64,000 nucleotides of DNA, taken from Rhynchonema sp. JSB1_4. Its lineage: Eukaryota > Nematoda > Chromadorea > Monhysterida > Xyalidae. Below are positions 145 to 62,200 of the stretch, in pieces (position 1 is the stretch's first letter; each line of letters starts with the position of its first letter). A model generated the notes under the pieces. The model worked only from the letters and a program-made list of their open reading frames with translations, searched no databases and was not told the DNA's origin. Where the stretch lies: contig JASAMV010002688.1 of the NCBI GenBank assembly GCA_030248065.1, positions 62,001-126,000 of the forward strand, in the 5' to 3' direction. The translations under genes and the position numbers were made by a program.

Positions 145-2377
145 ATGCGTCCACCCAAAGTTGATAATGTTGTTGGACAACTTCAGTTCGCGCGTCGCCA
201 CGGTCCATCGGACGACGGACTACTGCTCGACGAGCACATACAATCGCTGCGTTGGTTCGTGTTGTCGTGCGAAGCGCACGCCGCGCTCGTGTCGTCGCCG
301 ACGAATTCGCTGATCAAACGACATCCGCCGTTCACACCACGCACCTACCGGGCTCAGACCGGGACTGGGCTTGATGTGTCACACAGCACGAACGGGGAGC
401 CGGTGCCAGACTCGCACTCAGCGACAGATGACGATGCGACACTGTTGAATGGTGAACGGGCATGTCCGGTCTCAGACCATGACCCCTCTGGATTGGCCGG
501 TGATGAGCCCGAATGCCACGTGGTGACTCTAATGGAGTCGCCGGTCAAGGAGGAGGAGGTGCAAAATCCGAGCTCAGACATGGACTCAAGCCCCACTCGC
601 GAGTTTTGTCTGCCGTGCACCTACCCGAGTACGAGTGCAGCCGCGACGAACGGTGAGGTGCAAAGACAGAATTGGGCTGAAAGGGTACTCGTTCGAAGGG
701 ACCCGACACTGGCTGAGAGGGATCAGACGCGTAAATGGGTCGCACCGCCGAAACATGTGCTCAAATTGACATTGCAGGTAAACAAACTGGGTTAAATTAA
801 GTTAAACAGGATTGAACCAGCAATCTTTTTAATTTTTTTCACTTTTAGGCGATCACCGATTTCACAATGTTGCGCGACGGTGACCGGGTATTGGTGTGTT
901 TGTCGGGAGGCAAGGACTCGTTGTCGCTCTTGCACACGATGCGACAGGTGCAGAGAATTAGTGCCAGGTGCCAATTGAGTGTTTCGAATTTTTCTCTCTT
1001 CATGCTTGTCTCTTCATTCTAATATTTACTTGTTCTCAGCGCCAACAAGATCAATTTCGAGTTGGGCGCAATCACGGTTGACCCGATGTCCAGTGCCTAC
1101 GACCCGTCGCCGCTAATTGATTACTTGAAGGCACTAAACACCGAATATTTGTATGAACAACAAGGTAAATTCAAAAAAGGAAAAACCATTCACATTTAGA
1201 TAAGTCAGAGAAACACTTAATCAAAATGTGAATTCATATTTTCGATTCGATTCGGTGTCCGTGCGGACAGAGTCGAAATCCATACTTATAGCACGCGCTA
1301 TGCTACAACACATGACATCGCTATACATGCCAGATATGTTTAATTTTCAGACATAGTCGGCCAGGCAGCGTCGCTGGGTGCATCTTGTGCTTCGATTTGT
1401 GCGTTCTGCAGTCGTATGAAAAGGGGACGACTGTACGCAGCTGCGCGCGCATTGCACTGGAACGTGCTCGCATTCGGACAGCATTTGGACGATTTGGCTG
1501 AAAGGTGACTGCTGATGTTTCACTGTATTGGTTGATGATCATTGTGGCTGGCATGTCGGTTGGATAATTTTTTAGCTGCCAGTTTCTTCTTTTGTTTACT
1601 TTCGTGTGGTTTGACTTGACCGGCCCCGACGCAAAACTATTCAATAACATTACTCACCATCCTGTGCTCTTTCAGCTTTCTGATGAACGCGTTCCAAAAC
1701 GGCTCGCTGCGCACGATGAAGGCGCACTATTCGGTCAAGTACGTTTTCAGTATCTGTGTGTTCAATCCTTGTTGAATCAGGGTCATGCTCTGCTTGCTGT
1801 CTCAGGCAAAACGACTTGCGTGTTATCCGCCCGTTCGTCTACGTGCGTGAAAAGGACCTGCGTGTATTTGCCGAATCCAGTCAGCTGCCTGTGATACCGG
1901 AGAATTGTCCGGCCTGTTTTGAGCAGCCAAAGGTACGTGAGCAGAATTATTTTTTGTCAGTGTTTCTTCTTCAGTTTTGTGGTCGAGATGTTCTCGCATT
2001 GCCAATCGATTGAATTCAGATGGACAAAATTATGGTAATTGTTCTCGAACCACACAGCGCTGTCAGTCTAAAACCAAAAGCTTTGTGTTTTGGGCCCGTT
2101 TCGGGTTTGAAAACAAGTGGATGAAGTGAAATGAAAAATTAAATAAAATTTGTTTAAAAATTTAAAGAAATGAAACAAATGAAGTACAGATGAGACTACG
2201 TTGACACAGGAACGTCATCGAATCAAGCAATTGCTCGCCAGTCAAGAACTGCACAATCGAGCTGTGTTCCCGTCCCTGCGTGCTGCACTCAGACCGCTGA
2301 TGGCTGCCGCAAGGGGACAGACTGCTGGCCAGATATTGGCGCCGAGCATTGGTCAACACGATGAGGAGGAAGATTGA
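145..2377 (+). CDS. TtcA-like PP-loop tRNA thiolase (seven exons)
   Basis: Exons 145-777, 849-967, 1040-1164, 1351-1504, 1676-1738, 1806-1932 and 2210-2377 join in phase to 462 residues. The N-terminal ~200 residues are acidic and low-complexity. The catalytic part starts near residue 212 with [20 protein letters not shown], the ATP-binding PP-loop at ~230-235. [10 protein letters not shown] (~305-313) and [10 protein letters not shown] (~397-405) supply the cysteines that bind the Fe-S cluster in Ttc[12 protein letters not shown] is also characteristic of the family. By family knowledge these proteins adenylate a tRNA base and exchange oxygen for sulphur (2-thiocytidine 32 in bacteria). The resemblance is to TtcA rather than the CTU1/NCS6 type. 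The ATG at 145 is the first in frame, but an upstream exon outside the window cannot be excluded. The C-terminus ends in an acidic DEEED. Confidence 0.87.
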
Positions 2378-3481: not shown

Positions 3482-5746
3482 ATGTCAACGGTACAACCAG
3501 TGTACCCATCAGAACCCTGCAAAACCGCATTTTCATTTCTGCTCGCTGCGAGTGCGTTAATTGGCAATATATTCGCATTAGCCATCGTACATGACTACAC
3601 ACCGCGGTACGTGGCTGTTTTGGTGTGTGTTTGGCGCCTTTTGCAAAAGTTGACGATCACTCGGTGACTTGTTTTCAGAGCTCGTGATTTGAACGAACGT
3701 TAGACCTAGACCTATTCACTGAAGATTTGTGAACAACTTGCACATTGTCAGCTCCCCTCCCCCCAGCTATATACACCACTGACGAGCGGTGCTGTGCATC
3801 TGGTCATCGTCAGTGCAAGCGCCCCAGATGACCACGTGACCCCTGAAAGGAACGGACACACCCGCGTTGGTGTTACGCTCGCTTTTGAATGAAACATTGC
3901 TGTTTGTGCGCTTACAGCAACGCGGTGCTGCCCGATCTCGTGTTCTTTCTCATCCCGTACCAACAATGGGCAGTGCGCACGGCCGATGTGTGCATGAACG
4001 TGGTCATCGTAACAACGGTGCTGTTGATGGGTGTGCTGCATCGGTATCGATGGATTGTCGTCCGCAGATGGCTGACCATGTTGTTTCGTTAGTTGCCGTT
4101 GACTGAATTTGGGATGGTTTACTGCTGTAGACGTCGATGGAACGGCGGCCACTGGTTCTTTTTAAGTCCCTGGTACCCAACCCCCCCCCCCACACACAAG
4201 CGCATGTGAGAACAGCAGCATGTCAGGTGCACGAACGCAGGACGAAATCAAACTCAATCGGCCCATCCGGGGCTTGTCCACCTTCAGAAACCCCTTCCCC
4301 AATCACCCCCAAACCCTCCCCCCCCAAAACCAACAAACACCAAAAAAAAAAAAAACAAAAAAAAAAAAAAAAACGCGGACCGATTACTAAGTTTGATTCC
4401 GACCATTCTCAATTGCAGTGCTGTACGGTATTCGTATCCCGTGTCTGACGTTGACCGTCCTTCCCACCTGTGTGCACAACAACAGCATTGCCTGTGCACC
4501 AGCCATGAATCATACGGACTGGTCGGTGGTCGTGTATAGGGTGGTGCACTACTTGATAGGCGACAAGGTGATGTTTCATTGGGATTCTGTGCTTTCGTGC
4601 TAGTCTGACATGACTCTTGTGTTAATTAAGCGATGATGTTAGGAAATGTCTCGCAGGTATGTGATCTTTCAATACAATATGGAGGTTTTGTCTGACCTGG
4701 CCTAATCCATAAAACGCACCAAGCATGTGTCAACTAGCAGTCGCTGGCTTGACCACCAACTGGCGTGCTCACTTAGTGCTCTTTACGGATCAGGCAATGC
4801 TTTCGAAAAAAACCTTTTTTGTCCGTATAAACCCACAGAACTCATCATCCTTTCGACTTGCAGCATTCGGACCAAATGTTGTGCGGCGACATATTCTACT
4901 CTGGTCACACAATTCAGCTGTGTGTCGGCTGTCTAATGCTGTGCCGTTACACACCCATGGGGCTGTATTGGACGGTGTTCCGTGTTTGCGCACGTCTGGT
5001 CACTGCATTGGGCGTCTGCAGTCTGATGATCAGTCATGGACACTATGCCATTGATGTGCTCGTGTCATATGTGCTCGTCACAATGGTGTTCAGGTGCGTC
5101 TGTCAGTTGCATTTTCAGTCAATTGGTCAAGACAAATCAAAATACTGACAAACTTGGGCCTATCAATGCACACGCTGGTTCGATGGCCCTGCCAGCGCAT
5201 GTGCTAACTGCTAACTGGCAATGTGAACATCAAGTGTTTTGTCTTCGCTAAGAGGCTGATATCAAACATAGTGATCTGATCGGACCAGTTTACCCTGGCG
5301 CTTTACAGTCGCATCAGACTGTCTATATAGACGAGTTGATGTCGTCGGACTAGACTGACCGATCACAAAGATGTGATCGGACCACTAGGACCGATCAGAT
5401 TCTATTCTGTCCACTCATCAAGTTTGATCTCAACCACAACGTTCCATCCGCTTCGCATGTTTGCAGTCTGTACCATTCACATTGCGAGACGCCGAACGCG
5501 TGTCGTGAGTGCAGTGCCGCCCGCTCGTGGCTGTTCGCCGTGGTCTATTGGATGGAGCACAACGTGCCGGCCAAGTCGTTCACCAATCAATTGTCGTGGC
5601 CGTTGGCCCGACCGACGTTCATGGTCACGTTGATGAAACGATGCTCGGCTGCTGAAACATTACGTGAAGCGGACAACATTGACGATGGTGGTGGTGGTGG
5701 CTGTTGGGAGTGGTGCACTGGCCGCAAGTCGGAACGCGTCACGTGA
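3482..5746 (+). CDS. Sphingomyelin synthase-family phosphotransferase (five exons)
   Basis: Exons 3482-3606, 3918-4087, 4419-4567, 4864-5093 and 5467-5746 give 317 residues in phase, slightly short for the family. The order of conserved blocks fits sphingomyelin synthases: EPCKTAFSFL with the first membrane helix and VHDYTPR, then LPDLVFFLIP, then LHRYRWIVVRR. Next come the D3 motif CGDIFYSGHT and the D4 motif SHGHYAIDVLVSY, which hold the His-His-Asp catalytic triad. The C-terminal tail contains YWMEHNVPAKSF and a run of glycines. The enzyme is a six-helix Golgi or plasma-membrane protein that moves phosphocholine (SMS1/2) or phosphoethanolamine (SMSr) from a phospholipid to ceramide. I cannot tell these substrates apart here; no SAM domain is visible, so it is more SMS2-like in layout. 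Intron 2 contains homopolymer C and A tracts (4180-4375). Confidence 0.9.
4699..4797. repeat. ~100-bp terminal-inverted-repeat element, copy 1
   Basis: This short element in intron 3 of the sphingomyelin-synthase gene starts GGCCTAATCCATAAAACGCA and ends with CTCTTTACGGATCAGGCAA, an imperfect inverted repeat. Similar ~100-bp units are at 29260-29353 and 58017-58113; all end in ATCAGGCAAT. It has no coding capacity and is probably a miniature non-autonomous transposon. Confidence 0.5.
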
Positions 5747-7296
5747 TAGCGTGGAATTGTCGATTTGTGTCTGTCTGCCGACTACTGGAATTCTTCCTGA
5801 TGAATGGTAATGTATGAAACATCCCCTGTCTGCTTTTTTGTTAACCTTCTGTGTTAAGCCCTATTGCTAGACAAGTCATTGTTATGAGTTGCGCAAGTTT
5901 CACGATTCGGGCAGGCGGTCAGCTATATAAACAACTTAATTTTAAGAAGCGTTATCTCACAATGCACTGCTGTTGTGCGATGATTGTGTATTATCTCATT
6001 CAAGCGTTTGCTGTTTGTTATCTTTCTTTTGTCACCAAGCCAAAGATTTTTGACACCAGCTCCGCGTGCATGATAACTATGATTGTCTCATTTATTGATA
6101 TTTTAGGATCATAATCACTATCAATACCAATTTCGTTGTACATGTAACACTCTGGGCATTGGGCAGCTCATTTTGCTGAATGTGTATCATTGGATTTGTT
6201 CATTACCACTAGTATTGTGATACTGACTTGTTCAATTTCTTGTTTCTTTTAACAGAAGGGTTTCTATTTTTTACACTTGTTATTTTTTCACAGTTTTCAT
6301 CTGAATGGTTCAATTATTCAAACCTGCTGTTTGCGGTGCGCAAATAATAATGGCAACTTGTTTGGAAAAGCCTATATGATAATACATTGACGCCTGACGC
6401 GTGCATAATAGGTATTTGACCGTTTGATCGATCAGTTTTTCAATTAGTTGTTGTTTCGCCTGGGTAATAATTTTTAACCTATGAGGATTTATGTTTTTTT
6501 CATCTTTACTGGTCACACTTCCTGCGGTCGCTAATCTATTTTCGATGTTGTTACGGAACTGGATTTTGATTCCAAATTTTCCTTGATTCTTTATTCCATT
6601 TGTAGTGTGCTGTTCTATATCTGCTGATGTGATCACACTTTAAGACAGTGTTTGACACAATGTGGTATCAATACACCTTTGGGCTATATTTGTTCTGTGT
6701 TGTAATACATGACTACACATGTTCATATAATAAATGCCGTTACAGTTAATTGTGCTTGGTTGTAAAATATGAGAATTCATTGTTCAATTGGTTCATCCTT
6801 TTTGATAAAACTTGTGTTTGCGTGTCGGTATGTTTTCTCAGGGCTGCTTCTTGGAGTTGCGACCACCTGGAGAGAATACGGTGTGCCGTATCTGGATCTC
6901 GCGTGCCGAGCAAACGGTAAAACGCATGATGTGACTGCTATGCACACCCTCGTTTTTGAGCTGGCGAAAAAAGATTGCTATGTATAATTTGTCTCGCGTT
7001 TGCTGTTGTTGATGCTGCGCTTGGTAGTGTGTTCAGGCGCGTAGCTACATAGGTCCGATTTCGGGGATGCCACGGGTGAAAAGTACTTTTTATCTGGTGC
7101 ATATTTAATTTTCGAAACCAATTTCGATCTGGTGCTTGTGCAGTTTTTCACGCTCCGAATGTTGCTGTTTCTTTTATGCATTACGTCCATCGGGCATCTG
7201 TGGAACAGCAAGTTTCATTCCATGGGATGTGCATGTGAAACAACAGGAGCATTAAGGCTCAATTAACTGGGCAAAACAGGATCAAGTTCAAACATT
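5747..7296. other. AT-rich spacer with no recognised gene
   Basis: The first part is presumably the 3' untranslated region of the sphingomyelin-synthase gene. The rest is AT-rich with several T/A runs. Open frames at 5851-6114, 6310-6636 and 6769-6987 show no domain, splice context or family resemblance. I see no RNA gene. Confidence 0.5.
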
Positions 7297-8191
7297 TCAT
7301 AGCTGCAGTGGTTCAGTTTTGATGACTTCAATGGTCGGTCGGCCGATATCTGCCGGTTTCACGACCCTGATTACTGGTTGGTTAGCTGTTTGTTGCTTTG
7401 TACATTTGACCACGATCTTCTGCTGCACGATTGAACGTTTGACATCGCCACCGGGCTGCTTGACAATGGAAGATGTAGGCGGTCTGCGTCGGGCAGATGT
7501 GAACAGGGATCTTATCATCGGATGCCGCGCGTCACGATGTCGTTTGAGTTCAACCGCGTTGGCGAAATGCAAATCGCACGCGTCGCAGCTGCAAACAGAC
7601 GTGCAGGTTGCACATTATAAGCACAAGCAGGATTGAGCAAGGACCTAATCTTCTTGTTGACCACAAATGCTCTTGGAGTCAAATTCATAGACCAAAAACA
7701 AAATGTAGCTGAACACAAAACGCACACATCGTGATAGTTTACTCACTTGTATGATGTCAAGTTTGGATGGTATGTCTTGATGTGCAACTGCACACTGCCC
7801 GCTCGGGTGAATGACCGACCACAGTGTTGGCATGGGTGCCTTTTGGTGGGATAGTGGATGTTCAGATGCATCGCCAGTTGTGATTTGAACTTGAAACATC
7901 TGCCGCATACGTCGCACGCAAAGTCACGCTCGTCCGTGTGCAATGCTTTGTGATGCTTGACCACTTGGAGTTGTTGCTGAAAATGCAACGTGAAATTCAA
8001 GCAGAATATGAGACCAAACAAGTCAACAAAACATTTCGACACAAACAACCCACCTTGAAGCACACGCCACACTCGCCACATTCGAATGGTCGGTCGTCAG
8101 TGTGAACGAACGCCGTGTGTTCCCTCAATTGGCCCTTCAATGTGAATGTGAGGCCACAAAGCTCGCACGTGTGCGGCTTGAGAACATCCAT
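7297..8191 (-). CDS. C2H2 zinc-finger protein, five fingers (three exons)
   Basis: On the minus strand, exons 8191-8054, 7976-7747 and 7588-7297 join in phase to 219 residues. Finger 1 is CELCGLTFTLKGQLREH..H. Finger 2 starts CGECGVCFK and is split by intron 1. Finger 3 is CDVCGRCFKFKSQLAMH..H and finger 4 is CQHCGRSFTRAGSVQLH..H. Finger 5 is CDACDLHFANAVELKRH..H, whose first residue pair straddles intron 2. The linkers H-TDDRPFEC, H-TDERDFAC and H-YPTKRHPC are close to the classic TGEKP linker, so the protein is probably a sequence-specific DNA-binding factor. The C-terminal ~70 residues are basic with VIRVVKPADIGRP and end EPLQL. The ATG at 8191 sits five residues before finger 1; an upstream exon is possible. 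Orthology is not assignable. Confidence 0.85.
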
Positions 8192-11700: not shown

Positions 11701-14700
11701 AGCCTAACCCTGAACGAAGGCCTGGACGTTGCATTTTTGTGGATAGTTCCTTTCCGTGGACAGGTCTTCCTGGCTGGCAGCCTAAGCCTAAGCCTAAGCC
11801 TGAAAGAAACCCTGAGCATGTGTGTTTTTATTGATGTTTCCTTCGTATGAACAGGTCTTCCTGGCTGGCAGCCTAAGCCTAAGCCTAATCCTGAATGCAA
11901 GCCTGAGCACCAACTACATGAATGCCAACTTCTGACAAAAAAATTTGGTCCATTTCTGCACCTTTTTATTTTTCGGGATTTTTTTTTCGGGATTTTTTTT
12001 TCGGGATTTTCGACGGCCACCTTCAGCAAAGCGGCATCACGAGCGGCGATATCAAGAAACTGCAAGAGTCTGGCATCAGCACCGTGGAACAACTGGCGTA
12101 CACGCCGCGCAAGGAGCTGTTGTTGATCAAGGGCATTAGTGATGCGAAGGCCGACAAGTTGAAGGTAGAGCTCCTCTGATTTGGTAGGGTTGCTGCCGCA
12201 CAATTAATCAGGTATCCATCAAGTCCGACCCCAATAATATCAGGCCGAGTCGTACAAGCACGTCAATATGGGTTTCACGACGGCCACCGAATTCCACGTG
12301 AAACAATCGGAGATCATTCGAATCACGACCGGCAGCAGGGAGTTGGACAAACTGCTGCAGGGCGGCATCGAGACCGGCTCGATCACCGAAGTATGTCGTG
12401 ACTGGGATTATTTTTGGACGTCCTGCCATGGAATGGGTTCCGTATCTTTGTGGGCCAGTGAACCTTTTGGACCACAGTACTTCTTGGGCTGTGTGACCTT
12501 TTGGGCCAGGTACTTTTTGGGCCAAGTACGTTTTGGGCCACGTGTTTATTTTTACTCAAATGACAGCCTGAACCAGGATCACGTCCACAGTACCTGTGGC
12601 GAACTGACTTAGCATTGATTATGCGAAAGTTGCACAACAGATGCCACATGCATTTTGGGTTAAGGTTTAGGCGTTCAGATTAAAACATAAGTAATATGTG
12701 GGTACCATTTGAGACAGACATGTCAGAGGGACAGACCCGCGTGTTGCAGTATGCGCCTGTCTGACTGACAAAAGTGCCCATAATAACCGGTACAAACCCT
12801 CTCACAACCTGTCCATCTCAACACTAACATTCTTTTTTGTTGATTACTTCTTATTTAGGTTGCGAGTTACGGAGATGGGATTGTTTCTGTCAACTCTTTA
12901 GGCCCTATTTGTAGCGTTGTTGAAACATTAACGGCTCACAAAACGTTGGAAATAGAAAGCACGTATAATTTATCGATCGCCATCAACACACAAGCATAGA
13001 CGTAGACGGCAGGCTGAGTGATGTTCCATGTATAATTACATAAGGCACGTGGGTAAAAACCATTTGACAGCGCGTGTCACATTTCAACGGTTTTTAGGGT
13101 GCCCACTCTGATCATGGGTGATTTTGGGAGCCGAGACGCCTTTTTTGCAAAAAACAAAACAAAACACCCCCCCCACCCGCGGGAAGGGGGGGAAAGCTTC
13201 TCTAAGAAGTAAAAAAAAAAAAAAAACCCCCTTCCCCCTTTCCCGTTTTTTGGCCCGCCCCCCCCCCCCAGGCGATATTTTTCTCTCTTTTTTTTGTTGT
13301 TTAATTAAAAAAAAAACACAACACGTTTTTTTTAAAAAAAAAAATCCACCCCCCCCTTCCCCCTCAAATATCTTTCTCTCCTTTTCCCCCCACCCACCCA
13401 ACCAACACCCCCCCCACCCACCCCCCCCCCCTCCCCCCCTTCTAAAAATTTTTTTTTCTTTTATTACTCCTAACTTATATATCAATTTTATTTTGTTTTT
13501 TTTTTTTTTTTTCTAACTTCCAATGTCTTAATTTTTGGTCCGGACTCCGAGCGTTCTGGAATCAACAATCTGGTCTCCTACTGGGGCAAGCGATCATGTG
13601 AGTAAAAGTAAACATGTGGCCCAAAAGGCACAACATGCACCGTGGCCCAAAAAGTACATGGCCGAAAAGGTACCTGGCCCAAAAGGTACCTTGGTCCAAA
13701 ATGTAACGTGGCCCAAAACGTTTACCTGGGCCAGAAGGTACATGGCCCAAAAAGTACGCCATGCATATGTGGCCAAAAAAGTTTACCATGTACATGTGGC
13801 CCAAAACGTACCTGGCCCAAAAGGTCACATGGTCCAAAAAGTACTGTGGCCCAAAAGATTCACTGGCCCATAAAGATACGGACCTATGGAATGTACTCCC
13901 GGTGGTGCGGTTGTATACTAATTAGCAGGAGGAAAGACACTGAATTTATTTTGCGCTGATATATGATACTTTTCGGTATTACGTCCTTTTGCAAAGGTGA
14001 CCCCAACCAAATTCATGTGCCACGGTCACCTAAATCTGCGATTTTTTGTGCACCAAAAAAACCCGAAGTTCAGGCACCGAAAGTAGGTCGAAACCAGAAG
14101 AGATCCAGCTTTTAGGAACCACTAAATGTTATATTTGCCAGATTTCATTTTTTTAGGTCGCACGGTATCTAAATTTTGTAAGAAAACAGAAGCGCCTAAC
14201 CGCTGTGGTAATGTTTGCCCGCAAAGCTGGAACGGTCCAGTACCAATATGTTTGACGGATGATAACGACAAAACGCGAGTTCAACAAACCAAGCAAAAAA
14301 GAGGAGGGCGGAGGCGCACAAGAACCACCCCAAAAAAACACAAAACCCCCAAACAAACCCAAAAAAACCCCCCCCCCCCCCCCCCCCCGTTGCAGATCTT
14401 CGGCGAGTTCCGCACGGGCAAGTCGCAGCTGTGCCACACACTGGCGGTCACGTGCCAATTGCCGGTGGACATGGGTGGTGCTGAGGGCAAGTGCTTGTGG
14501 CTCGACACCGAAAATACGTTCAGGGCACAACGATTGATTGACACCGCGGAACGGTGCGTTTGTGTGCTTTGTGCTGAACAAGGTCAACGCTGTTCTGTTC
14601 TGTTTTTATTTCGAATAAGAGCCCAGTGTCACGGGCGCCTGTCTAGGTCAAAAAGGACTTTTGGCACCAAGGCTAATTCAAGGCGAAAACCACTGAAAAC

Positions 14701-21855: not shown

Positions 21856-21884
21856 TGCAAATTGGCGGCAATTTGAATCGGGTT

Positions 21885-22408: not shown

Positions 22409-22416
22409 ATCGGGTT

Positions 22417-23746: not shown

Positions 23747-23748
23747 TA

Positions 23749-25235: not shown

Positions 25236-25289
25236 AACTTTTTGTCTGAGAAGAAGTTGCTAATTTTGTCGATGTCAGTCTGCAGACAT

Positions 25290-29353: not shown

Positions 29354-29394
29354 TGCGTTGGTAAAAACGCATCTATTGCAGGTCGTATCAATTC

Positions 29395-39481: not shown

Positions 39482-39731
<250 letters not shown>

Positions 39732-40827
39732 ATAGTTTGACCGACGAGTGTTTGTGCATGTGCGTATAGTTTGCGTGAATTGAGCATGCCTTTCACGCGT
39801 CCGCAGCACAGCACCAAATGAAAGCGATAACAGCAGTGTCACTTTAGTTCCCCGTGTGTCTGTGTCTCAGCGGCCGCGCCTGCGCATGCAGTTTGCAACA
39901 CAAAACTTTGGGGCGCACTTACCCCGTCGTTCGGCTTTATAGCAGCTATATAGCAGGAGTATACAGTCCCTGACTGTAAATATATTCTCGGTTCTGGCAG
40001 TCGCCTGCATGAAACATCAGCTGGTCTGCTCATTGGTGGATTATCAGCGCGTTCATGTTACACGTATCAGTGGGCGCTTGGTATCTAACACCGAGTTACA
40101 CCGATGGCTGGTATAGGTACGCGGGCCATCCCAAACTCCGCGACGTCCGAAAGTTGACTACTGGCACACCCTTACTGTACCAGTCTGTGGAGTCTTGAAA
40201 CAAGCGGTGTGGCGAGAGCTCAGTTTCGATATACTGTATGTACCGAACACCGATCAAGTTGGCTGCCTGTTTCGTTCGCAGACTAACTTTTCTGCTCTCT
40301 CGACTTCTGTGTCTGCGTCGCGCATACATTATTTGCAAGACCGCACACGCTTCCTTCCGGCGAGTGCCCGAAAACAGTGCGCTTAGCCGTTCCGTTCATA
40401 ATGTTTGCTCCGATGTTTGCTGCAACGCAAAAAAATGCATGATACCTAATAAGATGCGCCGAACTGAGCGTGCGGAAATTCGGGTGCTGAAGTTGTCAGC
40501 TGCTGCATTATTATGGTTTTCGGTACACGCAGTTTGTTGTTAAAATCGCACGGTAAACATTCTTCAGCGGCAAATTCAGTGCTAAAAATTCAGAAGGGGT
40601 ACGGGGAGCACTTGCAATTTTTTGAGTTTGCCCTGTCAGATTCCCTTTGCAACGATCCCCTCTGTTATCTGACCCTCAATCCAAGAAACGCTCTGGCGCT
40701 TTGTATTTATTGTGTATTTATGTTGAGTTACTTTGGCCAGTCGAATTTTCGTCTGCTGTTATCGCCTTTACGTTTGTGCCAAATTTTATTATTCACACTC
40801 ATTAAGTGGACCACGTCGTTCCATTTA

Positions 40828-42708: not shown

Positions 42709-42769
<61 letters not shown>

Positions 42770-48700: not shown

Positions 48701-51700
48701 CCAAGATCAAAAAGTGGTTTCAACAGCAACACAAAGTGTGACTTTACACAAAAAATAAAATTCAATTCAGACCGTTTGAACGCACGGACGAGGAAGTGGA
48801 GCTTGTATACGAAGAGTTCCTCCACGTACGAGCGCTGTCGCAATTGTCGTGCACCGTTAAGAGAGAGCTGGCTGCCGTCGCTTACTTGGAGGTGGGGAGG
48901 ACGCATCTACATACCATAATCCACATTTCGCGAAATATTGAGTAACAGTTCATAATTGGTCCACTCCGGACTGAGCGTCTGGCCTGGGTCACTTTACTTC
49001 ATGTATTAGGTTTGCTAATTCCGCTGATTTTGACCAGCGTAAAAGCCAGTTCCCAAACAGGTGGGCGTAATCTGGGCGGTGTCACCACTTCAAAAAGCTG
49101 ATCTGATCCGACCCGATTGATACTGGCGATAGACAATATTTCACGTTGAATCCATTTTTTGTTCCCACACAACCATGTACTGTACATGTATTTCGACCGA
49201 CGACATGCTTGTGTCCGTTTTGCAGTCACACGCACACGCGGGCACGGTGTTGTTCCGACAAGGTGACATGGCCAACAGCTGGTTCATTATACTGCGCGGC
49301 TCGGTCAACGTCATCATTCATAATAAGGTGTGTTGAGTGTGGGTGGACCCATTTGGCACATCTTAGGTTAGACGAAATTGGCTGGCCATGTTGTTCGAAT
49401 CTGCTGTAAGAACTGCTTTCCTCGTGTTTTTTGGTCGCGTCGACATTTGGTGCATTCACACTGACGATGTGCAGCCCGTCTGAGGAAGCAGAACGAAACG
49501 GGTCAAACTCACCACTGTTAATTATACCTACATCATCAATGTTCGGGTGTATTGGATAGAAACGCGGGAGGGAAAAAAGCAATTTTGCCAAAATATAATG
49601 CATATCCTACAGAAATGTCGGCCGAAGCCTGAACTCAAATTTAAGTTCATGAGCCGAAGCGTGATGTTCAAAACATGGCGCGTGTTTTTCGTCTCCAAAG
49701 CCTCCTGCTGTTCTATCCTCATCAGTTTGAATTTGACATGCGGGTTCATTACGGTTTCATTATACAGACGCTTTCCTGAAACACATATCTATACAAATGT
49801 TTCTTGCACATAAACACCTGGGCTTCAAGGACTTCTCCCAGAACTTTCAAATGTGTCCGCAGCTGCCTGATTTTCCAGGGAGTCGTCTGTGCGCTGTACG
49901 AAGGCGATGACTTCGGCAAGCTGGCCTTGGCATCAAGTGCGCCTCGTGCGGCCACAATTGTGCTCAGGGAGGATAATGGACACTTTCTCAGGATTGACAA
50001 GCATGATTTCAACAGGTTGGTGTCATTGAGAGTAAATGGCGTCGATCTGAATGTGTTTTTAGATTTTGTTTCAATTTGAGGCCATCTTTTCTTATTTCCT
50101 GTCCATTTCGGAACGAGGCTGCTGCATTGTATATCATTTAGCGTCCCGGTCTGAGTCCGGTCGATGACCAAGCGAAACGAAAAAGAAAGTCATTTTCTTG
50201 TCCATAATAACTTGCAGAGTTCTGCGTGACGTCGACAGCAACACGGTCAGATTGAAGGAACGCGGTCGCGCTGTTTTGGTGCTCGAAAAAGTCTCACTTA
50301 CGAATCGCCTGCGACGCGTCAACGGACCGCCGCCGATTCTGCCACATAATTACAGGTTATACATGACTTATGTATGGGGCGTGAAACATCATCACAGGGA
50401 TTATACATTTGTAAAAGCGCTGGCTACAGAATGAGGGCAGGAACTGGTTTGTGAGTACTGGATGTGGAAGTCTTATTCTATAACTGATTGAGCCCTGGTG
50501 GGTACCTGGTTTACTTGGGTTTCATCAAGTGGTGAAATGAAACCAACCCACCAATCTTGCTTGAGGACAGCAACAATGTCAACGTACGCAACATTTCCTT
50601 TTGCGCCTTGGGTGCACAATTCCTAACTTAAACCAGTGCAGATAGTTTGACTTGAGAACAACTTTGGGCGCTCCTGCATGCACCAAAATTGTGGTTTCGA
50701 TTTCAGGGTTAGGCTAAGATTAGGCTTAGGTCTACATTTATTGCTAGGCGTATACTGAGTACATTCACAGGGGGAAGTCCAGCTTAAGCCTACAAGAAAG
50801 CCTGATAAAATGCAAAATGTGTTTGGAAAGAGGATTATGCTGGAGCGCGAAATTTTGGCTAAACCTGGTTTTCGGTACAGCAAGGTCAACTTGTTGTTCA
50901 GGTACTCGGTGCTGGCAGGTACAGCCGAGAAGATGTTGGAGTATATCCTCGAGACCAGAGTGGACGTTGAGCCTGACGCCCGCTTGCGTGACGCCTTGTT
51001 CGACGACTTCCTGTTGACACACGTGCTATTCATATCCACTAACGTGCTCAGCAATCTGTTAAAACATTACTATCAGAGGGGATGTTCGGTGAGTGTATAT
51101 ACATTACTTGCGTCTGGTTGCTTCTGGTTTTTCATTTTTTACCTATGGTTTATATATAGTACAGGTGACCAGCCTATTTGAGTGTCATTTGCGACATCTG
51201 TCAGCTGTTACATCACTAACATCGACCATCATGAAGCCTGATGTTTCAGGTGAAGGAGCGTCTTGACGTCGGCGTTCAGGTGGACGGATTGATGGACGAA
51301 ATCCAGTTGCTTGCGTCCAAACATCGTGTCGTTCATTTCATGTACAGATGGATTACCATGGTCGGACTCGCGTTCTTCCTCGATCCCGTCGGCGTGTCCT
51401 TTGTTGAGGTCAGGTTTGACCAGCGTGCGTATGACCAGTGTAAGAATTTATTTTATGATATTTGTTTGATAAGTGTGCGGGTGTGGCCTTTGCAAGAGTT
51501 CATCCCAAAACGCACGCTTGACCAAAGTTTGACCAGTGTAAGAGTGCATTTGAAAACATTTGTTTGACCAGTGTAAGAGTTTATTTTATCATAGTTATTT
51601 GACCACTGCAGGAGTTCTATTGTATGGTAGCCGAGGACACGCACAAATGGATTGGGCTGGAGGCACTGGCGAACAATCTGTTGGAAATCGTTCAGATTCG

Positions 51701-54700
51701 CGAAAACGCAATGCAGATCTGCTCCAGGTCGAGGGTGATGGCCTTTAATTATTAAATAATCGCACTGTCGTCTCTATTTTTGAACCGAAGCCAATTCCAT
51801 AACTGCTACGAATATACCGTCCATCGTTCCCCATATATGCAGGTCATCATCCCTGGTTCTCGAACGTGGCACGTACCGCCTTGATGCACCCGCACCCGAA
51901 CCAATCATGCCGTTTGACATCGGTCAGTGACCAATTTCGTTGTTTACACTGCTGTTGTTGAAAAGATATACATAAATCGCGTGTGGTTGCAGCCATAGTC
52001 GACATTCACGGTGGCGATGGCACGTTCGTTCCGATGAAGACCAGACTTGATCGAACAGCCGCGCAGATCCGCGACCAAGTTGGGCAGCGATTCGTGTCGG
52101 GTCGGGCGGTCGAGGACATGTTGTTGGTCGAAGTGAAGTCGAGTGGAGGTTGGTCAGCCGCAACTTTGGGTGAATTCTGCATGGTATGGCATTGACCGCT
52201 TCAGCACTGTGCACGCGGTGCATGCCTACACTTTTGTGTGTGTAGGCGTCAAAGGCGTGCACGTAAAGGCAGACTTCACCTACATATATGTAGAGTTGCA
52301 GCTAGTGCTACATACATGTGCTGGGTTGGGTGATGTTGCACCAATCGCACAAGGAACACGGCGTCTGCCTCTGGAAAGGCGCATGGGCATGACATGTACG
52401 GAGCAAAATTTGGGACCCAAGGCGAAGACCAAGCCCTAGTTTGTGCATACACGTATACACTAATCGGTCACAAACCAACGGCAAAAACGGACACCGGGTA
52501 TAGTGGTTTTGTTTTGTTGGTGTCCGGTCTTACAATACAGAACCGCACCTGCAGCTGTGACCAGTGGTGAGTGGTTGGTGACACCCGGATCGTCCCCGGT
52601 AGAACGCTTTCAAAGGAGCCCCCGTTATTTTGAAAACAGTTGAAATATGACAATGTAAGTAATATGAAACATTTGTTTGCAGAGAAGGTGCTCTATGAGA
52701 ACAATCAGATCAGCGTCGCCACGATGCTCGGCAAGAACTCGAAGCTGTTCGTCTGCTTTCAGGATCAAATCGACAGTCTGGTAAGCACAATAAAACTTTT
52801 TAAAAATGCAAAAAATACTTTCAACTTCAAAAAGAAAGAATGTCAACAATCCGTATTCTGTTCGATAGCGTCGGCTGCCCGAACAATACCAAGTGACCGA
52901 CAACATGCAGAATCCGGCCATTGACATAATGAACGTTATGGACATTGCCTTTGAGCTGTTGCACTTTCATTGGGACCTGTTCGCTGCCACGCACGAGCAC
53001 GAACTGCTCTATTATGTAAGTATATCGTGTGAATTGCTTCGTTTTCGCTTTTTAAATAATTTTCCGCTTTCGGGTTTGCTTTTAATGGCTTGATCAATCC
53101 GAAGCATATACCGTCATCTGTCCAATTAAACATTGCACATCTTAAAAAATGTCACGAAGAGTGCTACATTTTGTATTTCTAATAAAGTTCTGACGAAGTT
53201 TTCCACACAAAAAAATATTAAATCGATATGTCAGGTGTTCGGTCGGTCCAAGTTCAAAGGTCGTCTGCCGGCCAATCTCGATTTGTTGCTGCGTCGATTT
53301 GAGGAGGTGAAATTCTGGGTGACCACCGAGGTGCTGCTCAGCTCGAACGCTCAGCGTCGCGCGCAGATCGTGACGAAATTCATAAAAATCGCTCAACAGT
53401 CAGTTTGATTCATTTTGAAAGCATTGTTTTTACCGCTTGAAACATCTACACGGTTGGTCTACCGTGTGCGCAATCTACCCTCCATGCAGTGAATCGATCG
53501 ATTTTTGTTCACCATATCGCATATTCTCTGTTTGCAGCAGCAATTAGGAGGTTAACGGTGCATTGGGGACGAAAGATTCATTCACCATGGGGGAATCGGA
53601 AGCTTACCAGGCCAGGGCCAAGGCCGGGGCCGGGGCCATGAAAAATAATCTATGTCCGAGACTCTAGCCCCGGCCCCGGCCCTGGCCTACATGGGCGCAC
53701 CGACAGGGCCGGGGCTGGGGCCGGTGCGGAACATTTTTCTGGATAGGCGACGTTACAACTACAGGGTTGTCAATAATCCAACATTGGTTTCGTATATGCA
53801 GCTGTGCGTGTGTGTTCGTGTTGGGTGTGCTGTTGCCTGATGTATCAAGGGCACGGTCATTTTGTGGTTTTTTATTTAGATTATGCATATGTATTTGTTC
53901 AAGCAAATTAATATAAAGCGCTTTATTCTTAAAAATACTGGCTGATGAAAGGTCACCAGATGACATAAATTGTTTGAGCAACCGCAGTAAACGACACGGC
54001 TGCGCGATTTTCGAGTAACCCATGATTCAACCAATCAGCGAAAAGTGCACGTCGTGTATGTACACGGTCAAAAGCGGACTGTATGTGTATAATTGCAGGT
54101 AGAAGTTCAGTGTTTTGTCAACCATATTTCAAACTGCAGCCCGAATTTGCAATTTACAAATTTGTATAATCTAAAGAAAAAACACAAGATAGCCATGCCC
54201 TTGATAAATCAGGCAATAGCGCACCCAACGCGAACACACACGCACAGCTGCATACACGAAACCAATGTTGGATTATTGACAACCCTGTAGTTGTAACGTC
54301 GCCTATCCAGAAAAATGTTTCGCACCGGCCCCGGCCCCGGCCCTGTCGGTGAGCCCATGTAGGCCAGGGCCGGGGCCGGTGCCAGGGCCTCGGACATACT
54401 GTAGATTATTTTTTATGGCCCCGGCCCCGGTCCTGGCCTACATGGGCGGGCCCTTAGGGTAGAAGTTATGAAACAGTTGAGTGGAGAGTTGAGCTGAAAG
54501 TTCGGTGGAATGGACACGGTAGCGGTGTTTTCCATTGAACTTCGGACTCAACTGTTTCGTAAATTCCACGTCTATATGTATGTAGATAGAGTCGATTGTT
54601 AATCAGTCGCTAAGTTTTCCTTTGTAACACAGAAGCAAAGCATATCAAGATCTGTTGACGTTCTTCGCAATTGTGCTCGGCCTCAGCAATGTGGCCGTGG

Positions 54701-55609: not shown

Positions 55610-57106
55610 GTGAGACGACCAGACCCGCTGATGTTTCACATGCTGCCCCTTCGGCCAAATGCAGGAAATTTTGTACTCGGTGCTATGTAAAGTATATAAT
55701 GCTAGGTAATTGGTCATGTTCAGCTACACAACTAAGTGTAACTTATAGTCTCCGCGTAGATGCTGACCGATCGGCTTTTGTAATTTTTTATTGATTTCAT
55801 ATTTTAGATTATTGTTTTGACGCAAGAAACTGCCAAGCGTTCCGTTATACGCAACACTGCCGAAAATGTTCCAACACCACAAACCTCTAAATATTTATAC
55901 ATATATCTGGTTACTGCCACAACAAATGTCGCTAAACCTGCCAGGCTCCATTTTTTCTGTAATTATGTTTTTGGCAAAGAAAAACCGTCGCCATTTACTT
56001 TAAATGTTACATACTGTATGGTCTACTGTATTATATTACACAACTCGGCTGCCTTGACAACTGTACTTATAAAATGTGATTTATTGTGCGTGAGTTTATT
56101 GTCAATTATTATTGTACCCACTTAATCTTGTGAAGATATCAAAAAACTATATTTCAAAAATTTACACGCACACTGCACGGTTGTGTGTTGTGTCCGAATA
56201 AAAAATGACGTGTAAATGGCGCATTTGGACAATGAAACCAAATTCAGGGGAGCGAAAATTTTCATAATGCCACTGCAAAGCGCAGTTGACGGACGAGTGA
56301 GAATATAGAGCATTATACATTCGAAGGGGCACAATGTCAACAACAATAAACAATTATCAACAACAAGAGTATTACATTGTTCGATTCAGCTGTGAAGGGA
56401 TGCGGTGCAAAGTCGACCCGTGCAAAATCCCACGGTTGCATTGAAAAGAATAAGGAGGTCGCAAGTCAAAAATGCGTAAACGACTCCGTCATCAGTCTGT
56501 CCAGGTACTCTAGGTCAATGCTCAAAATGATAATCTAAATAAATACAATAATCATTTATTTATTTTATCGGATTTCGCTTGCGCACCGCCACTCGAGTCG
56601 ACGGCCACTCGAGGGCAACGTCTCCGTTCCTAACACGTTCACAATCTCTGCATGGTAGAGTGTGCAATTCGATGATAAACTATGTATATATGTACCTGCA
56701 TCAGTTGGTTTTGAGTCGATGCATTCGTTGTATTGTTAAGACCAAACAAAATTGCAGAAACCTTTAAAATTGTGCCCCACGAACAAGTGACGCACCCGGT
56801 TTTTTTTCATCTGACCGCTCGGATCAAGGCAGAGTATTGAATGGCCAGTTTTTTTGTAAAATTGTGCGCTTTTCAATAACCAACAGTTTTGACTTCTATT
56901 CCGATTCTTTATTCCAACAGTGGTGGACGGATATCACTTCGTACCTACAGCGTTTGCCTCAGCTGGTAATTCCATCACATCCATACATTAGTATTTTCAA
57001 TAATCAGATTTTTATGTTGAAGTTTTAGGTTCTTTAAAAACTCGATCGTCGGCGCTTTTGCTTTCAGCTGCGCTGCGCGATTGACTTTTAGTGTCGTCAC
57101 ACCAAA
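55610..57106. other. Spacer after EPAC
   Basis: AT-rich and presumably including the EPAC 3' untranslated region. AATAAA-type signals occur at about 56196 and 56540. No exon chain was found; an open frame at 56837-57028 has no recognisable content. Confidence 0.5.
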
Positions 57107-59289
57107 ATGAACACCATGATTCACGTTTGCATCGGTCTGCTGTTGTTGTTCGGCAGTTGGGTGCACCGCGTACGGGCAAATGCTGTGCTGACGGTTGGTG
57201 CTGGTTGGGTACTGTAGCCATGTGGAGATCAGATGGGCATGATGACAAGTGGGGTTACTGTGGCTATTGTGCTGTAGCAAGGAAAACCGTCTTTACTCAC
57301 TCTGTTCAAGCTGTGGTAAAAGGATCGTTATCGTGGCTGAACTTAGTCAAATACTAGTATGAAGGTACGCACTAGTATACATTGTTCTGGAACTTCTTGT
57401 GAGTGAACCGGAACACAGTGATCTTAATACGGAGAAAGAGCTGCGGGTTTCGTATCAGAAAGCTTGCCGAAAAATCCGAGTCCAACGCAACCCCCGACCA
57501 AACCGCAGTTGAGGCGACTTGTTGGGTGATGTTTCAGCACGACCACCTGACGATGGACGACCTGGCCACATTAGAGGACAGTGAACGACACATGGTCAGG
57601 TACATTAGTGCCCTGCCCTGGTATGTGAACGGACAGTGGCATCAATTGATGGCTCAACGATACTTTAGAACGGTGCGTTTAATGGATTGCTTGTTGGCGT
57701 AACGATTGACTGCTTGTGCGAGTGCGCCATCCGTCAGGGTGTAGTCCAACGACAACTAATTCAGCATTCATGCCCTGTGCGGTGCCTGAATCGTAAAGCG
57801 CGAAACCCAGTGCTTCGCCTCAGACTGGAAGTGATCTGCAGTTTGCATGTCAAGATCGCAGAGTATACCTGTCATACAACCTGCCCATCATTTTCGGTTT
57901 GAGGTGAAGCACTGCTGGGTTTCGCGCTTCACGATTCAGAAAACACACAGGGCGTAAATTATGAATTACGTAGTTGTTGTTGGACTGGTCAGACACAACA
58001 CCCAATGCAGAACTTATGCCTAGTACGTTATTTAATCCGTGAAGCACACACGCATGTGCTGGCCTGGCCATATGTGTGCTGTGGCACACGAAGTGCGCTT
58101 TACGGATCAGGCAATGATGCGGGCACAAACTCTGCATTAGTTGTTATTGAGTATAGTCCAACCACGAGCTCATGAGACGCCTGTTTCAAAGCTTGCTTAG
58201 CCAGATTCAAAAATGCTCCGGTTACACGTGTTTCGAAAACAAAAGAAAGAGATTGGGCCGAGAGAGATGGTGACAAGTTCCAGCTGGCTGACATTAATTT
58301 GTTGCGTGCTTACGCGAACAGCAACGTTATTCAACACACAAATGTTTTGGGAGTCAAAAGGGAATTTATGCACCGAGGTGAAGAGCGTGTTTTTACCAAA
58401 TACGTGCGTTTCTCTTTCTTTCGTTTTCGAAATACGTGGAACCGGAATATTACTGGATCTGCACAAGCCAACTTAAAAAGATCGTCTTATGAGCTCGTAA
58501 TTGGACTATGCACGATGAGAGCTGTTTGTCCATATGCCATAAGGTATAGTGCCCTAGTTGCTTGCAGCAAGCGGAAGAACAAGAAGCAAGCGACGAAGAT
58601 ACCGGCTCAGATCCGGACTTGTCCGGAGACATGGCCACAACTGAAACAGACGCAGAGGCAGCGTCCACAACGGAAAAAAGTGAAACATCAAGCCAACCAG
58701 AGACGGACGCCTATGAAACATCGGCAATGTCAAGCAGCAGTGAGACGTCAGTTGAAGAGACCACGGCGGAATCGGAAACAGACGATGGAACGGAGGAGGA
58801 TAATGCGAATGAGGAGATTCAAGAAAAAGATGGGCAGGGAAAAGAGAAGAAGCCCGACGTTGATTCAAGTGGGTTTCTCATGTCGAGCTCGATTGTTCTT
58901 CTTTTAAATTGGCAGAAGCGTTTGATCATGGCCACCAGTGTGCAGTTGTAAATGTATGGCCATTCTTTGCCATTGTTTTCTTACGAAGAGGTGAAAGTGA
59001 ACCTTTGTGCACAAAACGACCAACAGCTTTGAAGGAAGGTATATGTGACGGAAATTTCGCTCCTCTGCTGAGCTGATAATAATTCCATCAAAGCAACAAG
59101 GAAATAGGCCACAAAACACAAGTGGGAACTACATACATGTAGTTTTTTGATGTTTCACATATTACAGAGTGCGCCGACGTCGTGGACTACAACAGTCACT
59201 GCGAGGTGCTGAAACGTGTGAAAACATGTGACAAACTTTGGATGAAACTCAACTGCGAACGAAGCTGTCTCAATTGTGATGAGGCTTAG
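57107..59289 (+). CDS. Secreted acidic protein with C-terminal ShKT domain (four exons)
   Basis: Exon 57107-57193 encodes a signal peptide (MNTMIHVCIGLLLLFGSWVH, then RVRANAVLT). The second exon ends at 57672 and includes CWVMFQHDHLTMDDLATLED and LPWYVNGQWHQLMAQRYF; its start is uncertain (57439 or 57481). The third, 58568-58869, is a Ser/Thr/Glu-rich stretch (SETSSQPETDAYETSAMSSS and so on) likely to be extended and O-glycosylated. The last, 59168-59289, encodes the six-cysteine pattern C-x9-C-x8-C-x8-C-x3-C-x2-C with WMKLNCERSCLNC, a ShKT domain, and then stops. ShKT modules are widespread in nematode secreted enzymes and surface proteins. No enzymatic domain is attached here. Two TGAAACATC motifs lie in exon 3 and one in exon 2. 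Intron 2 contains two repeats. Confidence 0.75.
58017..58113. repeat. ~100-bp terminal-inverted-repeat element, copy 3
   Basis: Third relative of 4699-4797 and 29260-29353, with right end GCGCTTTACGGATCAGGCAA and left part TTAATCCGTGAAGCACAC. A similar but separate palindrome (TGAATCGTAAAGCGCGAAAC and its complement) lies at 57787-57940. Confidence 0.55.
58145..58515. repeat. ~370-bp palindromic element, copy 2
   Basis: Inverted relative of 25505-25895, lying in intron 2 of the ShKT gene and ending about 50 bp before exon 3. Ends: GTCCAACCACGAGCTCATGA at the left and TCATAAGACGAT-type sequence mirrored at the right. Confidence 0.75.
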
Positions 59290-62200
59290 AGTGATGCGAA
59301 TGACACCAAGAACGCCAAAACATTTCTGTTCAACAATCTCCAACATTTGTCGGTCATTATTTTTCAAAAAGTTGAGGTTACACTTGTAATGCCTCTTGGT
59401 AATGTTTCGAGAGTCTGAAACTGTTCTTGTCACCCACCACGCCTGGACGAGTGCACCCTCACTTTAACATGAGAAAACTAGGCAATGCTCGATAGGCATA
59501 AAGCTGGATATGGTTCCCAACAGTTCGAAACTGATTTGTTGCTGTCCGGCTACACTTCGCAGTTGGAAAACGTCATTATCCCTCAGGCGCAGAATTTAGG
59601 CTCAAGACACTATTGCCACAACATTTCCAGTGAAGCTGTTTTTCAGCTGCAGTGTAGACGTTGCGAAAACACATCTGGTGTATTGTGCAGTCAAAAGCTT
59701 TGCGGTACAATTGCGCAAAAAATTTAAAATAAAACATTTTCCGCATTTGCAACGTATTTTGAACGCTGCTGATAACAATTTGTGGTTCAAATTCAGCTTA
59801 TTGATAAAAAAAACCGGTAACGACATCACTTTATAGCATCGAACAGTTGGGCTTGCCGAGGCGCGTTGCGGATAAAGAGAGACCAGCACACATTTAAGAA
59901 ATTTTCGACCGCAATCACAGTAACGTGCTATGTAATTTTCCATGGTTCTGTACACAGGGTGGATTTCACAAAACAAAAGCAAGCGTACCACGTCAAACTC
60001 AATGTCAAACTCCATGTCACGTTCAACGTCAAGTTCAAGCTCAGTGTCACGTTTCCTGCGCGCAGAAAACACTGTCGGGTACATCATCCTGGATCAGCAC
60101 AAACTGTGCTGTGAAGCAACAGACAACAGCTGTGCAGCACAGCATGAAGCTACAGTGCGTGTGTTGTATAGTTGCAGCGCAACGTTTGTCCGACAATCAG
60201 TGCATCAAGTTGAATTGATGCGTGCGTGTGAACGTGACGTTGGGTTTGGTGATCTGGGTATACGTATGTAGCTTGATGGTGAACTCGTGAAAGTTCGCGT
60301 CATTTCACACGTAACTCTGAGTTTTCACGTCGAACTTTGATATTGAGTTTGACTTTGTTTTGTGAAATTCACCCATTGCAATAAAAGCATGTAATGCAAC
60401 GCGGTGTGTGGAACTCCAGTGCCACTCAGGCCGGCCAAGGAGCTCAAAACGCACATTTTGACCAGTTCATTACAAGACTCGAAAAAACCGTAACATTGTA
60501 CGTGTCACAGTGCGCTTTCGTGGCAGCTCTAGCTATTTTTGTGTTCAGACGCGTCAGACTACATATACTCATAGTCATAACCATTTTCTGGAATGAGTGT
60601 CACACACAGCCACAGGTCTGTCATTACTGTCTGCGACGCTTTCGATAAAATGCGCCATGATACAAAGTTGGTGGTGCGCAACCAGGATGTATAATTTTAA
60701 TGTTACTCAAGTTTCTGACAAAATCAGTAAGTCAGCGGTCATGACAACAACATGAGTCACACATAATGCACATTGTGCAGGTGTGAAAGCGTTCCCCTTG
60801 TTGTGTTCCTTTGTGACAAGCAGGTCACGACGGCAACAAGGGCGAGTTGTAGCACAATTTTCTCACGTAGAACTGGGTGGGCGGCAACATATTACTACTT
60901 TGGACCAATAACAACAACAAACAACATGCTGTTTTCGGTCGATCCACAATTCAGTCAAACAACAGAGTGCTGCTCCTTTATTTGAGACGTTTCCTCGCTT
61001 TGGATTGTATTGCTCAAGATGGCTTTGTTCAGAAGACTCAAGCACGCATTTGGACATGATTATGTTGATGTGATTAGTTCCTTTCGTCGCCACAAACGTC
61101 ATTGCCGGCTGCCAGGTGCACACCCACACAAAGCCGAACTGTCTCTTGCGCATTGAAACATTATGTGCGGGGCGATTTTGGAATGGTTTGTGTGCGTGTG
61201 CGTGAATGAACACAATGGCAGCCAGCAGACCAGAGCAGCAATGTGTCTGTCTGTTGCACAAGCACGCTGCGTGGTTGTTGTTGTAATGCCGAAAAAGTGC
61301 GCAAAAATGCAAATGCACATTCGTTGCGTGTTGTGCTGCATTCATTGATTGCGCGCTGTGCACCTGAAAGCGTCGTCCCGCTTGTGTTGTTATGATTTTT
61401 GATATTGTTGATGAAAACGGCAACAACATTTCATATCTCACATGTAGTTTTACTTTCATTTCAATTGAGAACACATGCGAATTTTTCACACATTTCGGCC
61501 GTGCTCATGTTTTCCAGGATTGATACGAGAAAATTTTCGCACGCGGGCCGGTTTTGTTTGATGTTTTGCGTTGATAGTGTAGTGTTGGAAAAATTCTTGT
61601 CTCTCTGACCACTCACTTGTTGTATTCGTATGGCCTTTTTCGGCCTCAACGAGCTGGTTTGCTTATGCCGTTGGTGATATCAATTGCAAACAATTATTAT
61701 TACTTTCTGCCGCATTCATTGAGTTGCGTCGTTTATTTTTGCTCTCCACCTTAATGCTCTTTCATTGCACAAATGCTCACCATTTCTCCCAGGCGAGACC
61801 TGTTTCGTGTTCAAAGGCGCTCGATTCCGTGAAGCGCATGGATTGTCAATTGAGCACACTGTTCTTCCGTCACATACAGCAGTTGCTATGTCATGTCTTC
61901 ATTTTCAACGACGCCCCATTATTACTATTTTCAGACAAAACAGTTACAAGACAGAACAGCAGCTCAGTCCCGCTGCTTGCAAGTCGCCAGTGATCCCTCT
62001 GCGATCTAGTCACCATCGGCGGTCGAAAGTATGCGATCGTAACCCGTCAACATCGATTTCGCGATCAATCAATACTTCATATATCTGATCATATCCAAAG
62101 TTGCCGATTTCATCAGTGAACCGATAACAGGTGATCTCACGTGCGAGCGTCGCTTGCGACTGCAAACACATCATCCCGTCGTTCGTCAGAATCTGTGATA

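Follow-up and report, generated by a model that had tools for sequence, protein, structure and literature searches.

The piRNA (PIWI-interacting RNA) motif of nematodes is described as a derivative of the SNAPc motif of small nuclear RNA (snRNA) genes; it is separated from the 21U start by 42 nt, and a low-melting tract follows (PMC6436959). The same source reports that nematode piRNA loci carry this tract downstream as a pausing tract, and that Plectus sambesii has it ~10 nt farther on than other species (PMC6436959). In Caenorhabditis elegans, the USTC complex is reported to coat piRNA clusters and Ruby motifs (PMC6317315). The present analysis concerns a short word, TGAAACAT, with its longer forms TGAAACATC (TGAAACAT followed by C) and TGAAACATCA, in a 64,000-nucleotide stretch of contig JASAMV010002688.1 of Rhynchonema sp. 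JSB1_4 (positions 62,001 to 126,000, assembly GCA_030248065.1), hereafter the window, and in the assembly to which it belongs.

Read on the reverse strand, the word gives a GCTGATGTTTCAC logo and TGAAACATCA becomes TGATGTTTCA, which contains the GTTTC core. The explanation favored here, held as a whole at roughly even confidence, takes TGATGTTTCA to be that half of an snRNA promoter element which lies farther from the start, presumably bound by SNAPc and related to the GTTTC (Ruby) piRNA motif. Three settings are seen: ~42 nt upstream of U1 genes (in degenerate form at some U2 genes), mostly followed by GAAYGACTA; in ~300 complete elements, many of which may be piRNA-precursor genes serving the genome's PIWI; and as ~37,000 lone half-sites which, judging by the architecture seen in the sample, lack a second half and start signals. 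The half-sites would be selectively maintained, most likely as landing sites of a SNAPc-like complex. Because the C. elegans complex coats piRNA clusters, they are proposed by analogy as a dispersed counterpart of USTC on those clusters, with a role other than RNA starts at a fixed place; this is the weakest step.

Abundance of the word

Exact TGAAACAT, TGAAACATC and TGAAACATCA were searched on both strands of the window, which holds 42 copies of TGAAACAT (27 on the plus strand, 15 on the minus), including 27 of TGAAACATC (17 plus, 10 minus; Table 1). An earlier note on this DNA had counted about 41 copies, 26 of them with C next; both figures hold up, with one copy (7892) having been missed and several minus-strand positions lying 1-2 bases off. 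Its ~20-fold excess of the 8-mer stands against the equal-base expectation of ~2 copies and falls to ~5-fold under an order-2 Markov model (121 copies vs 23 expected), fitted to a tandem-repeat-masked 264 kb sample that joins the window to 20 stretches of contigs C1630, C17, C7 and C18, a convenience choice and not a random one. In the same sample TGAAACATC occurs 71 times vs 5.0 expected, and TGAAACATCA 56 times vs 1.7, a ~32-fold excess that ranks second among all 10-mers, after the C/G homopolymer.

Genome-wide counts, proposed in the earlier note as a check, lie far above background. The assembly comprises 203.9 Mb in 5,747 unplaced contigs with no gene annotation, and the reversed words served as controls. 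TGAAACATC occurs 46,647 times (23,220 and 23,427 by strand) vs 1,330 for its reverse (690 and 640), and TGAAACATCA 37,556 times (18,727 and 18,829) vs 345 (173 and 172), a 109-fold difference; both words are evenly split between the strands. An explanation of the excess as a compositional artefact draws on the shrinking of the 8-mer excess under the Markov model; the Markov and reversed-word counts of the 10-mer rule out compositional bias, leaving that explanation with next to no probability. The ~37,000 lone half-sites correspond to about one per 5.4 kb, and the spacing of copies (coefficient of variation 1.29) indicates mild clustering only. The density of TGAAACAT varies several-fold among contigs, C7 and C1630 differing from C17 (C7 has 27 copies in 30 kb, C17 has 13 in 70 kb). 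The letters read in all amount to about 0.36 Mb of 204 Mb, overlaps included.

snRNA promoters and complete elements

Rfam gave 10 U1 matches (nine above cut-off) and nine U2 matches (eight above cut-off), and the upstream 200 bp were read for 10 U1 and eight U2. TGTTTCA begins at -41/-42 in seven of the 10 U1 matches; it is followed by GAAYGACTA in five of these seven and by GAATGACAT in another, and the U1 consensus reads [T/G]ATGTTTCACGCGYGAAYGACTaCCC. Exact TGATGTTTCA is found at two of them (L121 and L124). At two further U1 matches, L119 (C5667:3423-3637) and L123 (C1907:7722-7936), TGTTTCA is not at the expected place, and complete elements lie ~276 bp too far upstream (C5667:3735-3756 and C1907:7603-7624, respectively), as if an insert of that length had split these promoters. 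The tenth match, below cut-off, carries GATGTTTTTG. The U2 genes include one exact copy at -44 and two near-matches at the same place among the eight read. TGTTTCA is the 7-mer that recurs in the largest number of the 18 snRNA upstream stretches (11, eight of them at -41 to -44), standing elsewhere upstream in L114, L119 and L123 (-139, -176). By sequence and place, TGATGTTTCA is the start-distal half of a predicted snRNA promoter element, and its position, together with published nematode SNAPc motifs, suggests that SNAPc binds the U1 element. A second conserved block is present at ~-127 to -85 in all eight U2 genes read (L108-L115), starting with TCTAACGT (TCTAACAT in L112).

Complete elements were sought as ATGTTTCACGCGYGAAYGACTA with up to three mismatches, which occurs 315 times genome-wide, U1 genes included; its reverse occurs nine times. 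One hundred were listed (13 with 0, 28 with 1 and 59 with 2 mismatches), the three-mismatch elements forming the majority of the 315. Sixty of the 100 were fetched, and nine with similar downstream sequence were dropped, leaving 51 independent sites. Downstream, their sequences are unrelated; they have GCTGATGTTTCAC in common with the bulk of the copies, including the GCTG side that lay outside the search word, and the element tends to be preceded by GCTG and followed by GGC. Positions are counted from the first T of TGTTTCA as 0, so that the U1 start falls at +41/+42. On this scale mean A at the 51 sites reaches 0.46 at +67..+106 vs 0.26-0.27 in bulk copies and controls, and GC, a measure of composition, is 0.29-0.37 at +70..+109. 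This A-rich, low-GC tract sits ~25-65 nt past the expected start, and its A content is at least 0.45 in 62% of the 60 complete sites; the same level is reached by 4% of the bulk and at 5% of the control places. T reaches 0.37-0.47 at +43..+47, a window chosen post hoc, with no single fixed T. Rfam at E<=0.1 gave no match in the 51 sites (L149 replacing L142) over ~80 nt past the expected start. Since the tract resembles that reported at piRNA loci, Rfam gave no match and the downstream sequences are unrelated, many of the 315 complete elements can be read as putative piRNA-type units.

PF02171 has 54 exon matches in 17 contigs, C971, C4966, C4479 and C5352 among them. Those read in C3198, C802, C2817, C4344, C2124, C3630, C3982 and C2030 appear AGO-like by eye, and PIWI-clade exons were read in contig C1663. 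Once joined, the C1663 exons match Piwi, Ago3, aubergine or piwi-domain proteins wherever the 120 matches listed are named; on these exons, the genome encodes a predicted PIWI-clade Argonaute. In C3368 and C4595 the matched PF02171 positions are patterned as in C1663.

The scattered copies

The earlier note had described the copies as spread singly rather than as one repeat family. Grouping the 220 copies whose flanks are complete (loci that overlap being counted twice) gives 171 flank clusters, of which 144 hold one copy each, and a 3.9 kb query (47600-51500), for which all 18 candidates were scored and very common words skipped, leaves five of five copies outside every repeat match. One dispersed repeat family is ruled out by these two results. 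Part of the copies nonetheless ride in transposons, and to that extent the description needs qualifying. The copy at C12:9176 lies in a young high-copy repeat or transposon (1,265 candidates, the other 39 scored at 98-99%). In the window, an inverted repeat recognized by eye (29390-30570), with arms of GGGCCCTAATGCACG-like tandem repeat, holds TGAAACAT at 29489, 29759, 29822, 30216 and 30421, so that the pairs 29489/30421 and 29759/30216 belong to one structure.

Copies in young high-copy repeats are what would be expected of a self-spreading sequence, multiplied by transposons or by biased copying like the DNA-uptake words of bacteria, and such drive would also produce the sharpness described below. 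It accords poorly with 171 flank clusters among 220 copies and with the repeat-free copies of the fully scored query, and the word is absent from two other high-copy repeats as they stand in the window. One is a foldback element (53609-54457) with ends of ~280 bp, scored at 89-95% identity in 39 other places out of 2,876 candidates; the other is a short repeat (38651-38806), for which 40 of 1,211 candidates were scored. In both queries high-copy repeats took up the scoring (40 candidates out of 2,876 and out of 1,211), and nothing firm follows for their word copies. We know of no biased-uptake mechanism in animals. Self-spreading is accordingly given only a small probability, well below that of the alternatives weighed below.

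Copies inside coding exons were also claimed earlier. Among 131 motif-bearing frames of at least 75 aa, 10 coding-looking ones were chosen for Pfam, and the positions of copies relative to domains were derived from the coordinates of both. A domain match covers two copies (a C2H2 finger, window 7892; Laminin G, L023:1396), and a third (L022:5631) sits in the interval that separates two EGF domains in a single frame. In two of the 10 frames (L018, L027) the domain is away from the copy, and five of the 10 gave no domain match. The motif-bearing window frames 34622-35095 and 58176-58907 had no match in a separate scan.

The consensus is sharp. The unmasked letters, 252 kb, contain 47 exact 10-mers in unique context (raw count with flanks, 55) and 17 copies of the 18 one-letter variants at the six core positions taken together; the raw total of these variants is 21 vs ~22 expected by summing Markov values. 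The variants in excess are mainly C9T and A3C, with a weak excess at positions 8 and 10. Neutral decay would leave an excess of one-letter variants, and its absence from the core points to purifying selection on most copies or to very recent or ongoing spread. The latter is disfavored because the flanks are independent, so that most copies are probably held by purifying selection. In a paralogue comparison of 52 pairs, 409 of the 416 sites in the first eight positions were unchanged, compared with 87% identity in the flanks; these pairs lack independence, mostly come from one family and, in rows L048 and later, were picked for carrying the word, making this result supporting only. Independent contexts, a sharp consensus and copies in coding exons together lend support to the DNA-level role that the earlier note had proposed.

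Several observations weigh against the favored explanation. The bulk copies give the same GCTGATGTTTCAC logo with weaker edges, but at the offset of the proximal sequence element (PSE) none of their 171 flank clusters matches the second half with one mismatch or fewer; one does so with two. A T or YRNT start signal shows no clear excess at +36..+48 in these clusters (highest YRNT 0.111 at +39, mean 0.074), and composition is flat, with no A-rich tract seen. At the snRNA genes, the U1 match L124 lacks the second half, five of eight U2 genes lack the word (four have TGATGTGACA, one TGACGTGACA), and five of seven U1 genes have T before ATGTTTCA, a position at which bulk copies carry G (57%) or A (34%). 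None of the 51 complete sites exceeds two mismatches. The full elements are at most putative homologs of the Plectus motif, as the place of the GTTTC half in the order differs.

Lacking a second half, a start signal and any departure from flat composition, most of the ~37,000 copies would seem to stand alone as half-sites. A piRNA start at fixed spacing from each copy was sought in 68 and 121 copies (not independent) and then in the 171 clusters, and was not found. For an A-rich tract like that of the promoters, the share of bulk copies that have it is estimated at -3% (95% confidence interval (CI) -14% to 6%; 119 copies, repeats not removed), and for a T signal a loose bound is obtained (CI -31% to 29%). 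The small-RNA promoter suggested in the earlier note survives insofar as the word is the distal half of the U1 element and shares TGTTTCA with Ruby; it does not seem to extend to most of the bulk, which lacks the second half and has the A-rich tract in at most ~6% of copies (upper 95% bound). The half-sites might instead be dispersed Ruby-only (type I-like) piRNA promoters, each copy having its own 21U gene, as in Pristionchus-like genomes. The word is identical to that of the snRNA element, a PIWI is present and copies are scattered genome-wide, including within genes; dispersed genic piRNA loci are reported from other nematodes (PMC6436959). The flat T and YRNT frequencies of the 171 clusters and the A-rich-tract estimate stand against such promoters, the T test being weak by itself. 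This reading is disfavored, and we regard it as improbable.

Somewhat less probable still is a mere resemblance to the snRNA element, with the bulk word serving some unrelated DNA-binding protein (architectural, insulator, pairing or kinetochore) as its site. Weak preferences widen the bulk logo to ~17 bp, mostly on the GCTG side, the copies occupy many contexts with no start-site signals, and most U1 genes differ from the bulk at the base before ATGTTTCA. The GCTG extension and the C after TGTTTCA are, however, also found in complete elements, and TGTTTCA recurs at -41 to -44 in eight of 18 snRNA upstream stretches. Within the explanation by SNAPc-like landing sites, the ~37,000 selected half-sites, both genic and intergenic, could further form a genome-wide address code that recruits the small-RNA transcription machinery without initiation, for example marking or licensing native DNA for PIWI surveillance, an extension that we consider doubtful.

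Table 1. Exact copies of the word in the window (positions of the 8-mer)
Copy	Position	Strand	Remark	Evidence
TGAAACATCA	1515..1522	-		exact match
TGAAACAT	3890..3897	+	T next	exact match
TGAAACATCA	4571..4578	-		exact match
TGAAACAT	5653..5660	+	T next	exact match
TGAAACATC	5815..5822	+		exact match
TGAAACATC	7892..7899	+	in minus-strand C2H2 zinc-finger exon; absent from earlier list	exact match, Pfam
TGAAACAT	12921..12928	+	T next	exact match
TGAAACAT	20530..20537	-	T next	exact match
TGAAACATC	24667..24674	-		exact match
TGAAACATCA	27870..27877	+	single other genome match 97%, same contig, motif retained	
TGAAACAT	29489..29496	-	within GGGCCCTAATGCACG-type tandem repeat	exact match
TGAAACATCA	29759..29766	+	one inverted-repeat arm	exact match
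TGAAACATC	29822..29829	+	within inverted repeat 29390-30570	exact match
TGAAACATCA	30216..30223	-	opposite inverted-repeat arm	exact match
TGAAACAT	30421..30428	+	within mirrored tandem repeat	exact match
TGAAACATCA	31195..31202	+		exact match
TGAAACATC	31226..31233	+		exact match
TGAAACAT	31680..31687	-	T next	exact match
TGAAACAT	32847..32854	+	G next	exact match
TGAAACAT	34927..34934	+	T next	exact match
TGAAACATCA	35007..35014	+		exact match
TGAAACAT	35410..35417	+	T next	exact match
TGAAACATCA	36505..36512	-		exact match
TGAAACAT	37613..37620	-	G next	exact match
TGAAACATCA	39245..39252	+		exact match
TGAAACATCA	40010..40017	+		exact match
TGAAACATCA	43283..43290	+		exact match
TGAAACAT	44752..44759	+	T next	exact match
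TGAAACAT	46464..46471	-	T next	exact match
TGAAACATCA	47861..47868	+	outside repeat matches	exact match
TGAAACATC	48305..48312	-	outside repeat matches	exact match
TGAAACATC	48575..48582	+	outside repeat matches	exact match
TGAAACATCA	50382..50389	+	outside repeat matches	exact match
TGAAACATCA	51241..51248	-	outside repeat matches	exact match
TGAAACAT	52665..52672	+	T next	exact match
TGAAACATC	53438..53445	+		exact match
TGAAACATCA	55631..55638	-		exact match
TGAAACATCA	57529..57536	-		exact match
TGAAACATCA	58681..58688	+		exact match
TGAAACATC	58714..58721	+		exact match
TGAAACATCA	59150..59157	-		exact match
TGAAACAT	61154..61161	+	T next	exact match

The window also encodes RAD51 on the plus strand, in exons separated by introns (14398-16431). 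The best three matches of the joined exons are the nematodes Syphacia, Enterobius and Plectus (78-79%), and the top seven also hold a protist protein and that of the choanoflagellate Salpingoeca (79%); the matches are suggestive of a nematode. The canonical nematode SL1 22-mer has no exact copy, which we take to make a typical clade III-V nematode less likely. Runs of C, A and T at 13160-13520 resemble low-quality assembly.

Comparison with known systems

An snRNA-promoter origin of nematode piRNA promoters has been proposed from few species (PMC6436959). If the favored explanation is true, the presence, in a probable nematode genome with a PIWI, of the same half-element in snRNA promoters, in hundreds of complete elements that are possible short-RNA genes and at tens of thousands of lone sites seemingly under selection would represent a state that is either intermediate or alternative, and SNAPc would seem to have a function across the genome that goes beyond initiating transcription. 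The titles and abstract openings surveyed hold no report of such a scatter, and papers found for the bare 9-mers, among the first entries of each result list, were unrelated. Published motifs were compared by their descriptions.

The snRNA PSE bound by SNAPc agrees with the word in place, orientation and core in seven of 10 U1 matches, whereas the bulk copies differ in lacking the second half, in carrying G or A rather than T before ATGTTTCA and in their flat flanks. C. elegans Ruby (CTGTTTCA, type I piRNA genes) has the 7-mer TGTTTCA in common with the word, PIWI is present in both genomes, and the U1 spacing found here is near the 42 nt reported for piRNA genes (PMC6436959). Unlike the Ruby loci, described as lying in chromosome IV clusters with a YRNT start (PMC6317315), the copies here are spread genome-wide and their bulk has no clear start signal.

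The bipartite SNAPc-piRNA motif described for Plectus sambesii and P. murrayi (PMC6436959) is likewise shared with snRNA genes and followed by unrelated downstream sequence, and the late-starting tract of the complete elements, low in GC, resembles the low-melting tract of P. sambesii in that account (PMC6436959). The arrangement differs: the Plectus motif is reported to have its extra part 5' of GTTTC, placing GTTTC in the 3' half (PMC6436959), whereas GTTTC here belongs to the 5', start-distal half. Moreover, while the two Plectus halves are described as almost always occurring together (PMC6436959), exact half-site 10-mers here outnumber complete elements (up to three mismatches) by ~120 : 1.

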